This document shows, piece by piece, positions 9,468-62,254 of a stretch of DNA of 64,000 nt (its first letter is position 1; each line of letters begins with the position of its first letter). Source of the DNA: Armatimonadetes bacterium Uphvl-Ar1 (GTDB lineage: Bacteria; Armatimonadota; Fimbriimonadia; Fimbriimonadales; Fimbriimonadaceae); NCBI GenBank assembly GCA_002162075.1, contig CP021423.1:620001-684000 (forward strand). Direction: 5' to 3'. The position numbers and the translations under genes were made by a program. The notes below the pieces were generated by a model. That model was not told the DNA's origin. It did no database searches and worked only from the letters and a program-made list of their open reading frames with translations.

Positions 9468-9549
9468 CATGTAGTAAGACAGTACGCTTAGTAACTAACA
9501 ACATGAAATACACCTTTGTAGAAGATATCTAGCCGATCCACTCAATTAA

Positions 9550-9587
9550 CCCCTCCCTTTATCCCTCCCCATTGCATTGGGGAGGGA
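9550..9587. repeat. Palindromic CCCTCCCC repeat, copy A
   Basis: CCCTCCCCA (9563-9571) and TGGGGAGGG (9578-9586) form an inverted repeat, preceded by an 'ACCCCTCCC' lead-in. It is a member of a dispersed family also seen at about 14.88, 14.96, 18.32, 49.83 and 62.15 kb. This copy is intergenic, just past the stop of the cytochrome gene. Confidence 0.65.
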
Positions 9588-17621: not shown

Positions 17622-18391
17622 TTATGGCGTGATTTTGCGGAAAGTGTTTGCATATTTGGAGGGAAAATCGAATTCGGAGATCGGGACGGCGGAATTGATT
17701 TGATCGTTGACGAGGTAACCGAGGATGCGGCTCGTGCGTCCTTTGGTGGTTTTGGTGATCTCAAATTGGCGGAGGATATATGTGCCGGTGTCGAACCACT
17801 GGGTGATTTGGACTTGAGAATCAGAGCCTGGATTGAGAGCTTTGGCGTCGTAGCGTGTGACTTTTTTTCCGTTGAGGGTTTCGGGGACGGCGGGGGCGAC
17901 GACGGGAGCGGGGTTGGTGGCGAAACGCACGCCAAGGTCATCAATGGTGAGGGACATTTGACCTTCAGCGGGGCGGAGCGGTGGAGTGATTGGGGGAGAG
18001 GATATCCTTCTTCGGGAGCGGTGAGTTCGTAGACTTTTTCGGTGAGGTAAGCCGTCCACTTCTGTTTTTTGTTGTAGGCGGATTCGGCGACATCTTGGCC
18101 GTTGACATTGAGCTTGGTGCGTCGTCCGTCGGGGGAAATCACGAGTCCGACTTCTTGGCGGGTTCCGGTGCCTTCTTGGGGGATCGAGACCATGACGTAG
18201 GTGCCTCGGAATCCGGTGAGTTTGTTGATGGCTTCGGTTTTTTGGGTTTCGATTTGTTCAAATGAGGGGGCTTGGGCGAGATTTAGCGATGTTGTGATGA
18301 GGACAGCCCCTCCTTGAATCCCTCCCCAACTTGGGGAGGGTGAGGCGAATGGAACGCCGGCAAGTGCTACTGATGCGAGAAATGGGGTCAT
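17622..18391 (-). CDS. LolA/DUF2092-like exported protein (frameshifted in this sequence; repeat in signal peptide)
   Basis: An exported protein of about 256 residues once repaired. The fold pattern 'INKLTGFRGTYVMVSIPQEG' followed by 'RQEVGLVISPDGRRTKLNV' suggests the LolA/outer-membrane-lipoprotein-sorting superfamily. A run of five G at 17992-17996 needs one more base to join 'APEEGYPLP' to 'PITPPLRPAEGQMSLTIDD'; without it translation continues in the wrong frame to 17573. The signal peptide is interrupted in frame by a palindromic repeat encoding 'SPSPSWGGIQGG'; without it 'MTPFLASVALA...LITTSLNLAQA' reads as an ordinary signal sequence. Lies downstream of the aldehyde dehydrogenase operon. 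Confidence 0.65.
18308..18346. repeat. Palindromic CCCTCCCC repeat, copy D (inside a gene)
   Basis: CCCTCCCCAA (18320-18329), C, TTGGGGAGGG (18331-18340) is a perfect 10-base inverted repeat with flanks CCCCTCCTTGAAT and TGAGG. It lies within codons 17-30 of the LolA-like gene, in frame. Confidence 0.7.
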
Positions 18392-18480: not shown

Positions 18481-20777
18481 TTATGCACCGTAGGGTGTCC
18501 AAATGTTTTTGATTTGGGTTGATCGGCGGAGGAATTCGGGGTGGGGTTTGGTGAAGTCCACGGGGTGCGAGACACACCAGGTTTGTTTGAGGTTTCCGGA
18601 ACTGAGTGACTGGATGGTATGGGCTCCGGATTCGCCGGAGAAATGCCAAACGAGGTCAATGCCGAGATGATCGGCGACAGTTTTTTCGAGGTCGGTGTGG
18701 GGAGCGGTCAGGATATTGAAAACTCCGCCGGGGACATCCGAGGCTTCGAGAATGCGCATGAGTTCGACAGCGGGGAGGGGATTGGTCTCACTGGGGATGG
18801 CGACGACGGTGTTACCCATGCTGATGATTGGAAGGGTTGTCGCGAGGAGTCCGAGGAGGGCTGGTTCGTGAGGGGCGAAGGTTGCGGCAACTCCGATGGG
18901 TTCGTTGCGGGTGTAGATGAGGGCACGCATCGGGGCTTGGTGGACGGCTCCGTCGTACTTATCTGCCCAAGCGGCGTAGCGGAAAATCAGGTCAAGGCTG
19001 GCTTGAAATTCTTCCGGTGAGATGCCAGCATTGGCGAATTGAGATTCGGCTGCTTGAAGATTTTCGGCAATGTAGTAAAGGATTTGGGATTTCAGGAATT
19101 GAGTCGTGCTGGCCCAACTCGGTTGAGCGGCGGTGGCGGCTTCGACGGCGTTGCGGAGATCTTTGCGATTGGCGAGAGCGAATTCGTGCCCCTGGGCAGT
19201 GAACGAGTATCCACCATCTGGTCGAGCTTGTTTACCACCAACGTAGAGTTTGTGGGTGCGATCTATTTCTGGTTTCTGAACTGACTGGGTTGGGAAGTTA
19301 GTGGTTGCTTGGGGGAGGATTGGTTTGAGGTATTCGAACATTCCTTCGCGGCCCCCTTCTCGACCAAATCCTGATTCCCGGTAGCCTCCAAACCCGGCGG
19401 CGGCATCGAATTGGTTTGTGCAGTTTATCCAGATGATGCCGGATTTGACTTGCGCGGCGATGTCGTGGGCGATGTCGAGGTTTTGTGTCCAGATTGACCC
19501 GGCGAGTCCATAGACCGAATTGTTGGCGAGTTGGACGGCTTCGGCGGGGGTTCGGAAAGTCATGGCGACGAGGACAGGGCCGAAGATTTCTTCGATTGCA
19601 ACAGTGGAGGCGGGTTCAACATTGGTGAGGAGGGTGGGGGGGAAATAGTAGCCATCGGTTGGAAGATCGCACGGGGCTTGGAATATTGTTGCGCCTTCTT
19701 CAACCCCTTGGTTGACTAGGTTGTTTATTCGTTCGAGTTGCGAGCGGTCCACGATTGCGCCGAGATCGACGGCTTTGTCGAGAGGGTTGCCGACGCGGAG
19801 GGTTGCCATGCGTTGGCGGATTTTGGCGTAAAGTTTTTCGGAAACGGATTCTTGAACCAAAAGGCGGGACCCGGCGCAGCAGACTTGGCCTTGGTTGAAC
19901 CAGATGGCGTCTACGAGTCCTTCAACGGCACTGTCGAGGTCGGCGTCTTCAAAGACGATGAATGGGGATTTTCCGCCGAGTTCGAGGGAGAGTTTTTTGG
20001 TTGTTTGTGCTGTGGATTGGCGGATGATTCGTCCGACTTCGGTTGAGCCCGTGAAGGCGATTTTTTGGATTCCTGGGTGCTCGACGATAGCGCGTCCGGT
20101 TGACCCGTCGCCGGTGACTATGTTCACGACTCCAGGGGGGAGGCCGATTTGATCACAAATTTCGGCGAAGAGAAGGGCGGTGAGGGACGTAAATTCGGCA
20201 GGTTTGAGGATGACGGTATTGCCAGCAGCGAGAGCGGGGGCGATTTTCCAACTGAGCATGAGGAGGGGGAAATTCCAAGGGATGATTTGTCCGCATACAC
20301 CAACTGGTTGATAGCCGGGGAATTCTTCGGGGGCGAGCTTGGCCCATCCGGCATGGTAGTAAAAATGTCGAGCAACAAGGGGGATGTCGATGTCGCGGGT
20401 TTCGCGGATGGGTTTTCCGTTATCGAGGGTTTCGAGGACAGCGAGGAGGCGAGCGTGTTTTTGGATTTGTCGCGCGATTGCGTAGAGGTATTCGGCGCGG
20501 CGTTGGGGGAGAGGGCTTGCCAGGGGGCGAGGGCGGCTTGGGCGGCTTGAACCGCTTGGTTGACTTGCTCGGGGGAGGCCTGGGAAATTAGAGCGAGTTC
20601 GGTGCCGTCGGCGGGGTTAAGCGTGGGGAACGATTTTTCGGCTTTGACCCATTGGTTGTTGATGAATGAGCCGAAAGAGCGGGCGTGTTGGTCGAGCCAG
20701 GCGTGGGCGGCTTTGGCTTCTTCGGGTGCGGGGCCGTACGGGAGGTCTTGGTGGAGGAGATCAGCAACTTTGCTCAT
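18481..20777 (-). CDS. Two-domain aldehyde dehydrogenase, ALDH16-like (frameshifted in this sequence)
   Basis: About 766 residues when repaired. Residues 1-490 form a complete ALDH domain: 'PWNFPLLMLSWKIAPALAAG', NAD-binding 'FTGSTEVGR', catalytic Glu in 'LELGGKSPFIVFEDADL' and Cys in 'NQGQVCCAGSRLLVQ'. Residues about 510-766 are a second, degenerate ALDH domain ('EPIGVAATFAPHEPALLGLL') with no recognisable active-site pair. This is the ALDH16 architecture. A run of five G at 20505-20509 breaks the frame after 'APWQALSP'; one added base joins it to 'QRRAEYLYAIARQIQKHARLL'. The ATG is five bases after the deoC stop. With DeoC it could oxidise the acetaldehyde released from deoxyribose phosphate. 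Confidence 0.85.
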
Positions 20778-49823: not shown

Positions 49824-49868
49824 ACCTCACCCCCAACCCCCTCTCCATTGAAACGGAGAGGGGGCATT
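49824..49868. repeat. Palindromic repeat, copy E
   Basis: 'CCTCACCCCCAACCCCCTCTCC' type lead-in with CCCCCTCTCC / GGAGAGGGGG inverted repeat (10 bases, loop ATTGAAAC). A variant of the CCCTCCCC family, intergenic, between the protease gene and the GT-C gene. Confidence 0.6.
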
Positions 49869-60251: not shown

Positions 60252-60652
60252 TTAGAAGCAGATTCAGCCGCATCCATGAGCAGCGCTTGCATGAGGTCGA
60301 TGCGGAGGACAATTCCGATGAGAATTTCTTGATCGACGACGGGGAGGATTGTGAGACCTTGGTTTAGCATGAGGTGGAGGGCATCGCTGATTTCGGTATT
60401 CGGGTGGGCGACGGTGGGTTTTTCGGTAGCAAAGAGGTATGCGCTTTCGTGGCTGAGGGCGGTGATTTTTCCGCTTTTGAGAGTTGCTCGGGCGAGATCG
60501 CCTTCGGTGATTACATGAGTCGGAGATTGATCTTGGTTGACGATCACGAGGGCGGGGAACTGATAGATATCCATCTTATCAACGGCGTCGCGGAGAGTGC
60601 TTGAATGGGTTAAGGAGGGGATGTGGGCGTGGAGCACCTCGCGGAGAATCAT
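60248..60652 (-). CDS. CBS domain-pair protein
   Basis: A 134-residue stand-alone tandem CBS (Bateman) module: 'DAVDKMDIYQFPALVIVNQD' and 'THVITEGDLARATL' in the first repeat, 'DALHLMLNQGLTILPVVDQE' and 'LIGIVLRIDLMQAL' in the second. Such modules bind adenine nucleotides and regulate partner proteins. ATG 60652 is chosen because the upstream extension overlaps the divergent amidohydrolase gene. Confidence 0.82.
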   Translation of the reverse strand: MILREVLHAHIPSLTHSSTLRDAVDKMDIYQFPALVIVNQDQSPTHVITEGDLARATLKSGKITALSHESAYLFATEKPTVAHPNTEISDALHLMLNQGLTILPVVDQEILIGIVLRIDLMQALLMDAAESASN

Positions 60653-60691
60653 TGGACTGATTTTAGCTTGTTGGCGGGATATGATGGAGGG

Positions 60692-62254
60692 ATGTTGATC
60701 GGTGCAGAGATTTGGGGGAGTGGGGCGCGTGGGTTTACGGTTGAGGGGGGGCGGTTTGGGCAGGTGGGCGGTGATATTGATGGGGGGGAGTGGGATGGCT
60801 ATGTGGCGTTGCCGGGGTTTATTGACGCGCATTGTCATGTTTTGCCGAGCGGCCTTGATTTGCTCAAGTTGAATCTTTCGGCGTGTGAAAGTAAGGAAGC
60901 AGTTTTGGCGGCGGTGAGGGAGTGGCTGCCTCAAGTTGGGGAGGGGCAGTGGTTGCATGCGACGCAGTACGATCAGAATCGGTGGGGTGAACATTTGACG
61001 CGGGGGGAGCTCGATGGGATTTCAGATGTGGTGCCGATTTTGCTTCGTCATTCTAATGGTCATGCAAGCGTGGCGAATTCAGCGGCTTTGCGCGCGGCCG
61101 GGGTGACGGAGGAGACCGCCGATCCGGTGGGAGGGGAGTATGAACGCGATGCGCAGGGCGTGATGACGGGGGTTTTGCTGGAGAAAGCGCACGAGATTGT
61201 GACCAGTTCGGCCCCAGAGCCAGGGCTGGATGAGATGGTTGCGGCGATCTTGCGAGCAGGGGAGAGCATGTCGGGATTTGGGATTACGACGGCGACGGAC
61301 ATGATGACGGGCCGCTGGGATCTGGACATGGAATTGCAGGCTTATCACATTGCGAGTGAGCGGGGGTGCAAGGTGAGGTTACGGATGTACATGCAGTGGC
61401 GAGAGGTTTTGGGAGAGCGGGGGATTGATCCGGCTCGATTGGCGGAATTAATTGATGCTATGGATCCGGAGGTCTGTCAGGTTTTGGGGTTGAAGGTTTT
61501 TGCGGACGGAGCGATTGGGAGTGCGACGGCTGCGATCCATGGAAAGTTTGTGACGACGGGTCGGAACGGGAAGTTGATTTATCCGGAGGCGGAATTGGCG
61601 CGGATTTTGGCTTTGATTGATGCTGAGGGGTGGCGGTGCAGTGTGCATACCATTGGGGATCGGAGTACGGATTTGGTGATGGAAGCGTTTGAGAAAACGG
61701 CTGATCCGGGCCGGCACCGGATTGAGCACGCGATGATTTTGTCGGATGAACAGATAGCGCGGTTGGCGCGGCTTGGGAGCCATGTCACTTTGCAGCCAGA
61801 ATTTTTGTATCGGTTTGGGAAGGGGTATCGGGCGCAGTTGGCGGACGGGGTTTGGCAGAAGTTGATTCGGACGCGGAGTTTGATTGATGCGGGGTTGTCG
61901 TTGTCGTTCAATAGTGATCGGCCGATTGTGGTCGGTGATCCATGGGTGGGGATTGGAGCGGCGGTTAGGCGGCCGGAGGGGTTTGATGAGGCGGAGGCTT
62001 GTACGGTTGAGGAGGGGGTGGGGATGTATACGCATGGGGGAGCAGTGGCGAATTTCGATGGGGAGTGGTTGGGCCGGATCGAGTCAGGATTTGGGGCGGA
62101 TTTTCAGATTTATGATCGGGGGGCCTTAGCGGATTTTTGTCGGGCAACCCCACCCGGCTCCAATGGAGCCACCCTCCCCAAACTTGGGGAGGGAAAGACG
62201 AGCGAGTTTCCGAAACCAGTTGCGGTATATCGGGGAGGGGAGCGGGTGGTTTAG
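60692..62254 (+). CDS. Amidohydrolase family 3 (YtcJ-like)
   Basis: A 520-residue metal-dependent hydrolase. ATG 60692 with TGGAGGG upstream. 'LPGFIDAHCHVLPSG' carries the HxH metal motif; 'RHSNGHASVANSAAL', 'KVFADGAIGSATAA', 'CSVHTIGDRSTDLVMEAFE', 'RIEHAMILSDEQIARLA' and 'SFNSDRPIV' match the YtcJ-type order. It probably hydrolyses an N-acyl or amide substrate in the cytosol. Codons for 'RATPPGSNGATLPKLGEGKT' near the C-terminus come from a palindromic repeat inserted in frame. Divergent from the CBS gene with a 39-base gap. Confidence 0.87.
   Translation: MLIGAEIWGSGARGFTVEGGRFGQVGGDIDGGEWDGYVALPGFIDAHCHVLPSGLDLLKLNLSACESKEAVLAAVREWLPQVGEGQWLHATQYDQNRWGEHLTRGELDGISDVVPILLRHSNGHASVANSAALRAAGVTEETADPVGGEYERDAQGVMTGVLLEKAHEIVTSSAPEPGLDEMVAAILRAGESMSGFGITTATDMMTGRWDLDMELQAYHIASERGCKVRLRMYMQWREVLGERGIDPARLAELIDAMDPEVCQVLGLKVFADGAIGSATAAIHGKFVTTGRNGKLIYPEAELARILALIDAEGWRCSVHTIGDRSTDLVMEAFEKTADPGRHRIEHAMILSDEQIARLARLGSHVTLQPEFLYRFGKGYRAQLADGVWQKLIRTRSLIDAGLSLSFNSDRPIVVGDPWVGIGAAVRRPEGFDEAEACTVEEGVGMYTHGGAVANFDGEWLGRIESGFGADFQIYDRGALADFCRATPPGSNGATLPKLGEGKTSEFPKPVAVYRGGERVV
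62140..62198. repeat. Palindromic CCCTCCCC repeat, copy F (inside a gene)
   Basis: Two hairpins: GGCTCCA-A-TGGAGCC (62156-62170) and CCCTCCCCAA-AC-TTGGGGAGGG (62173-62194), preceded by CAACCCCACCC. In frame within the last 40 codons of the amidohydrolase gene. Confidence 0.7.

Follow-up and report, generated by a model that had tools for sequence, protein, structure and literature searches.

The genome of the Armatimonadetes bacterium Uphvl-Ar1 carries a dispersed, three-armed, triplex-type repeat whose copies are polarised with respect to the replichores, and this polarity, in a repeat that also enters genes in frame, is the stronger result of our analysis. Our tentative proposal is that the repeat settles in a single orientation with respect to the replication fork, contrary to base composition, and that it writes in-frame peptides, including one in a signal-peptide region. 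The window in which the repeat was noticed is a 64-kb stretch, positions 620001-684000 of a one-contig genome of 2,985,450 bases (G000).

The original prediction had described a palindromic repeat at 18308-18346 of this window; the palindrome is real and its coordinates are 18307-18340. This hairpin-forming repeat, CCCTCCCCAAGTTGGGGAGGGATTCAAGGAGGGG, lies on the minus strand and is read in frame as 12 residues, SPSPSWGGIQGG, within an ORF that begins with an ATG at 18391 and has the N terminus MTPFLASVALAGVPFA-SPSPSWGGIQGG-AVLITTSLNLAQAPSFEQ. Its arms are a pyrimidine arm CCCTCCCC, a loop AAGTT, a purine arm GGGGAGGG, a loop ATTCA and a third arm AGGAGGGG with one mismatch, and it was found by a three-arm search allowing one mismatch. 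The core CCTCCCCAACTTGGGGAGG has four matches within the window at up to three mismatches, versus 0.03 expected by chance. As single-stranded DNA the G-rich strand folds at -10.9 kcal/mol (z -1.95); the fold of this copy alone is only modestly unusual, and the strong evidence is its repetition.

With the repeat and its surroundings (71 bases) as query, BLAST returned 46 matches in the genome, many of them one site found on both strands. A strict three-arm pattern recovered 50 copies genome-wide, against none for backward controls. Family members are 34-48 bp long and consist of a pyrimidine arm, a loop, a purine arm, a second loop or hairpin spacer, and a third purine arm. Eight perfect purine-motif triplets are present in 47 of the 50 strict copies and the other 3 have at least one mismatch; opposite A, the third arm carries A in 27 and T in 20 of the 47 perfect copies. 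The quadruplex pattern G3+N1-7 occurs in 40/50, and the second loop is short in 40/50 and a long spacer, often hairpin-forming, in 10/50. A 118-nt tandem array at 313,988-314,384 of the genome holds four nearly identical repeat copies. Judged by its sequence, the window repeat is a copy of the dispersed class II intrastrand-triplex kind (BoxC/PIT/TM), with the class II arm order and a stem within the class range (6-15 nt, at most one mismatch where the stem has at least 7). Across 101 genomes the three-arm pattern occurs in 30, at 0 to 71 copies per genome, with one match to the backward control (in G071); these counts include nested matches, such as G014 351285 and 351291, and the matches in G092 look like another family. 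The sister genome G006 contains 53 copies.

Table 1. Features in the 64-kb window (window coordinates).
Feature	Coordinates	Strand	Remarks
Host gene, conserved protein, family unassigned	17622..18391	-	Frameshifted near 18000 in the assembly
84-nt block (28 codons)	18275..18358	-	Without counterpart in orthologues except G006
Class II triplex-type repeat	18307..18340	-	Three-arm layout, third arm with one mismatch
Hairpin-spacer variant	62147..62194	-	Antisense to an Amidohydro_3 gene (60614-62251, +), within its C-terminal part; reads ATLPKLGEG
Copy between long ORFs	9549..9586	-	Element at the syntenic place in G006 (C5:178070)
Degenerate copy between long ORFs	49825..49863	-	–

The gene that hosts the repeat lies between an aldehyde dehydrogenase gene and secDF. 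Its frameshift is far downstream of the insert and breaks the ORF, the rest of which is in another frame at 17622-18059; in G006 (PNMZ01000005.1, L057) the gene is intact and encodes 257 residues. Neither the host ORF nor its other-frame continuation matched a Pfam or NCBIfam family, and the intact G006 protein had no Pfam match. An AlphaFold model of the host protein has a mean pLDDT of 39, and is hence unusable for fold comparison, and a PDB sequence search gave marginal matches only, to PDZ-fibronectin fusions (E 0.02 and 0.039). The name 'LolA-like', under which the gene had been introduced, is unproven. The adjacent aldehyde dehydrogenase gene (window 18481-20777, minus strand) likewise carries a frameshift, which divides it into two parts (18481-20259 and 20124-20777), and is a single intact ORF of 765 residues in the sister locus; given this difference, the Uphvl-Ar1 assembly may contain indel errors.

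We searched the 101 genomes with the first 130 residues of the host protein. Fourteen matched, 13 besides the source genome, and N termini were read in 10 of these 13, with the weak matches L052-L056 (including G053, G068 and G070) left out. Among the 10 N termini read, the palindrome residues are present in G006, as SPSPTWGGIQGG, and absent in G004, G007, G005, G003, G002, G001, G008, G047 and G022. The nearest uninterrupted N termini read MTTVLAAILLTQAPSFAQLE (G007) and MTLALVPLLLGQAPTFEQLE (G004), and the start-codon context CCACCGCCATGAC is identical in G000, G006 and G007. The comparison bears out the proposal that the palindrome was inserted in frame at the start of the gene: it is common to the source genome and G006 and lacking from the nine other N termini, and no distant orthologue with the same residues was found among the ten.

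With the conserved start codon and QAPSF motif kept in register, the insertion would be the 84-nt block of Table 1, equivalent to about 28 residues, of which 12 are palindrome and 16 are not repeat-derived. Automatic pairwise alignment instead opened the gap at the extreme N terminus; on these alignments the exact boundary of the extra block is uncertain and its presence certain. The repeat would have entered the 5' end of the host gene in the common ancestor of the source species and G006, as part of this in-frame insertion. The insert is probably still translated, as suggested by its open frame and by the mostly synonymous differences between the two genomes (4 of the 12 insert codons differ, 3 of the 4 synonymously). 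The flanks of the element resemble each other no better than shuffles do (1230 of 2000 reached the observed similarity). The motif CCTCA on both sides of the element was considered as a target duplication and rejected: the distance is frame-breaking, and empty orthologues give no support.

We give almost no credence to the alternative that the segment is ancestral coding sequence that merely looks palindromic. Such a reading would account for residues shared with G006 and changed mostly synonymously, but 9 of the 10 genomes with N termini read lack the residues, and the same DNA is found elsewhere in three reading frames.

The halves on either side of the palindrome had been taken to form, together, a normal signal sequence. 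The insertion implied by this description stands; the description itself fits less well, because the block is about 28 residues long instead of 12, and the N terminus of the orthologues has only about 13, forming a short uncharged hydrophobic stretch. In hydropathy profiles computed with Kyte-Doolittle values, the empty orthologues scored show one short hydrophobic stretch with no charged residue before position 14, and the filled form shows two hydrophobic stretches with a less hydrophobic linker between them. The extra 12 residues would act as a Pro/Gly/Ser linker separating the two stretches, and the one beside the presumed cleavage site (AQA-PSF) would be retained. Because the stretch adjoining this site is retained, export of the host protein is probably tolerated, not abolished. 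The orthologues at L043-L051 and a neighbouring protease-like gene (L058:3529-4329) have very short uncharged hydrophobic N termini, for example MTTVLAAILLTQA and MTTLLAAFAIAQS, and from these short signal peptides may be usual in the family.

Orthologues show in-frame insertions in three genes: the host gene, an APH-like kinase and a metallophosphoesterase. The kinase (Pfam APH_6_hur) has the insert IPSPSMGRVREGL in G000 and TPSPSMGRVREGL in G006, and none in G007, G004, G005, G003 or G001. The metallophosphoesterase (Pfam Metallophos) has the insert VPSPSLGRAREGL in G000 and an expanded repeat set in G006; the repeat is absent in G007, G005, G004, G002, G014, G017 and G011. The extra block exceeds the length of the repeat in each of the three genes compared with orthologues. 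The G006 metallophosphoesterase (L273, C2 near 256,600-256,800) contains several repeat units and duplicated flanking residues in one open frame. A further in-frame case, in an FHA-like gene at 1,421,354, was read by eye only.

Copies in genes are exceptional. A codon-usage test found coding-like frames at 7 of 77 copies versus 212 of 600 random positions, and because of this difference we conclude that copies are mostly excluded from genes; two of the seven, at 892980 and 2305820, are degenerate and may be chance. Three intergenic sites shared with G006 (in G000 near 202,500, 2,304,000 and 45,100) are heavily rearranged with scrambled flanks, and comparison of shared intergenic copies with G006 recovered no clean insertion boundary or target site.

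We then turn to the orientation of the copies. All 24 strict copies on the minus strand lie within the arc from 2,728,194 through 0 to 961,066, and all 26 on the plus strand within 1,264,499 to 2,589,125; with neighbours less than 5 kb apart joined, they form 37 clusters. GC skew changes sign at two places, from minus to plus near 2.702 Mb and from plus to minus near 1.13 Mb. Skew is extreme in both G000 and G006, at about 0.2-0.4 absolute at most sampled loci and fading towards the switch points, with AT skew opposite to GC skew. The window has genes on both strands, and therefore the skew is not due to gene orientation. At sampled loci the G-rich strand of the element lies on the locally C-rich strand in 43/43 matches in G000, a number that counts two copies twice from overlapping loci, and in 34/34 in G006, a sample of 34 of its 53 copies. 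Further, orientation of the 53 G006 copies is uniform within each contig, with the exception of contig 2, where the switch coincides with the skew change.

This polarity runs against base composition. A relaxed search of 592,792 bases of G000 put the element G-strand on the C-rich strand 77:6, and 5 of the 6 opposing matches overlap true copies, by coordinates read by eye. Background GGGNGGGG runs outside elements favour the G-rich strand, 152:21. Because the two ratios point in opposite directions, the polarity of the repeat is opposite to strand composition, and likewise to the pattern that C-to-T loss would produce. One could suppose that polarity is a by-product of composition, with G-rich motifs following GC skew or surviving C-to-T decay, and it is indeed most pronounced in the two most strongly skewed genomes. 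The sign is nevertheless wrong, and the orientation that is kept has more C on the strand losing C; a compositional cause is thus contradicted by the opposite sign, and we regard it as highly improbable.

Two markers argue for an origin on the 2.70-Mb side: paired parS sites at 2.6276 Mb and, at 2.912 Mb, the gene for DnaA. The position would be approximate, because the skew flip is 210 kb away from dnaA and 75 kb from parS. The two switch regions, scanned for the dnaA motif, the DnaA box and dif, yielded one DnaA box and, at the settings used, no match for dnaA or dif. An origin near 1.13 Mb, hinted at by dnaB, obg and rimM there, was rejected since the positions of parS and dnaA favour 2.70 Mb.

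Weakly skewed genomes show partial polarity in the same direction: 20:11 in G003 (31 of 41 copies sampled), 27:14 in G014 (41 of 63 sampled) and 30:14 in G017 (44 matches counted versus 49 by pattern search), or 77:39 in total. At absolute skew above 0.05 the ratio in these three genomes is 35:7, or 18 loci to 4 (p 0.004). The triplex motifs of E. coli MG1655 divide 13:10 with respect to the replichores, as counted from Table 1 of PMC4666352 and the positions of origin and terminus. In the accessible portions of the open-access literature searched we found neither polarity nor in-gene copies of such triplex motifs.

Complete polarity with respect to the replichores, opposite to composition, means that the process placing or removing copies distinguishes the two template strands. 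We think it fairly probable that this is a three-armed repeat with an ancestral in-frame insertion, still translated, whose persistence is tied to the replication fork. If leading and lagging strands are assigned from GC skew, parS and dnaA, with the G-rich strand taken as leading, the G-rich strand of the repeat, on paper capable of forming a triplex or G-quadruplex, would in G000 and G006 always serve as leading-strand template, with the C-rich strand as template of the lagging strand. The observed polarity would follow if a single-stranded form inserts into the lagging-strand template, and this is the step we favour, if tentatively, with selective loss next. If it holds, the orientation of the repeat records single-strand insertion coupled to the fork. 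Several observations sit poorly with the overall explanation. Genomes with weak skew are only partly polarised, and the E. coli motifs are without polarity at 13:10; neither a clean target site nor a duplication was recovered, more than half of the extra residues (16 of 28) do not come from the repeat, and the insert-bearing gene has a reading frame broken further down in the assembly.

The insertion could be the work of an IS200/IS605-like (Y1/HuH) transposase that places single-stranded copies into the lagging-strand template, as with IS608, a possibility that we put somewhat short of an even chance. IS608 and ISDra2 are reported to target that template (PMC6006769). G000 has two Y1_Tnp genes, at 447,815-448,150 and 959,031-959,282, both on the minus strand, and each has a strict minus-strand copy about 1.75-1.9 kb upstream, a proximity noticed post hoc. 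Across genomes, Y1_Tnp occurs in 25/30 of those with any strict copy versus 43/71 of those without (p 0.036), but the association fades to 13/15 versus 55/86 (p 0.13) when genomes with at least 5 copies are compared with the rest. Further, no copies lie within 1.5 kb of either gene, G006 has no Y1_Tnp at E 1e-4 despite its 53 copies, and no GTAG-type tag was seen by eye in 18 aligned copies. A Y1 transposase is not clearly required for the repeat. Alternatively, copies may insert both ways, and those with the G-rich strand as lagging-strand template form a triplex or G-quadruplex and are then deleted or selected against. Triplex formation by class II motifs is reported in vitro, and in E. coli the motifs have been linked with local instability (PMC4666352); no copy in G000 or G006 has its G-rich strand on the lagging-strand template; E. 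coli copies are unpolarised, however, and three related genomes hold many copies in both orientations, so that we think such removal rather unlikely. It is less likely still that selection maintains the repeats as a polar signal of the KOPS or Chi type, read by a translocase or recombinase: orientation relative to the replichores is perfect here, but relatives show weak polarity and carry anywhere from 0 to 71 copies, and we found no link here between the motif and any protein. Single-strand insertion into the lagging-strand template remains the favoured step.

The repeat invites comparison with several known systems. Like REP/RAYT and IS200-IS605 elements, it is a short dispersed palindrome, and a fork-linked single-strand mechanism of their kind would explain its polarity. 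The tags of such elements, at the foot of the stem, go by the names GTAG and CGTC (PMC3733652). The present repeat differs in that no GTAG-like tag was seen in the aligned copies and that it flanks no transposase directly, and the sister genome G006 has its copies without a Y1_Tnp match at the threshold given above. A direct RAYT association is weak at best, the nearest strict copies being 1.75-1.9 kb from Y1_Tnp genes. The quadruplex/triplex repeats of Methanomicrobiaceae are also dispersed, and their G-rich and C-rich tracts can give a quadruplex, hairpin or antiparallel triplex; they differ in that the C-tract is on the other side, and all are reported as intergenic, with no regularity relative to the origin (PMC8044849).

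The closest likeness is to the TMECO/BoxC/PIT motifs of E. coli, which share the arm order (pyrimidine, purine, reverse-Hoogsteen purine), a similar length and loops, dispersed copies, and a third arm that places A or T opposite A (PMC4666352). The same paper gives class II motifs in E. coli as 34-37 nt, always intergenic and without strand bias in MG1655, whereas the source genome also has copies in frame within genes, and its copies are fully polarised. The class II rule, as stated there, allows a second loop of 1-6 nt, and 10/50 strict copies here have a long spacer instead. The heavy rearrangement of shared intergenic sites relative to G006 parallels what is reported for E. coli triplex motifs (PMC4666352).

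The original prediction had likened the repeat to the RPEs of Rickettsia, and in one respect the likeness is apt: both are palindromic repeats that sit in frame within protein-coding genes and seem to be tolerated there. RPEs are described as long stem-loops of 105-146 bp, with no triplex third arm mentioned in the passages of PMC2229807 consulted, whereas the repeat here is a three-armed triplex motif of 34-48 bp. We therefore reject identity with RPEs on length and architecture; the parallel is one of behaviour, not kind. The in-frame copies mean that such repeats can build new protein segments outside Rickettsiales, in Fimbriimonadaceae.
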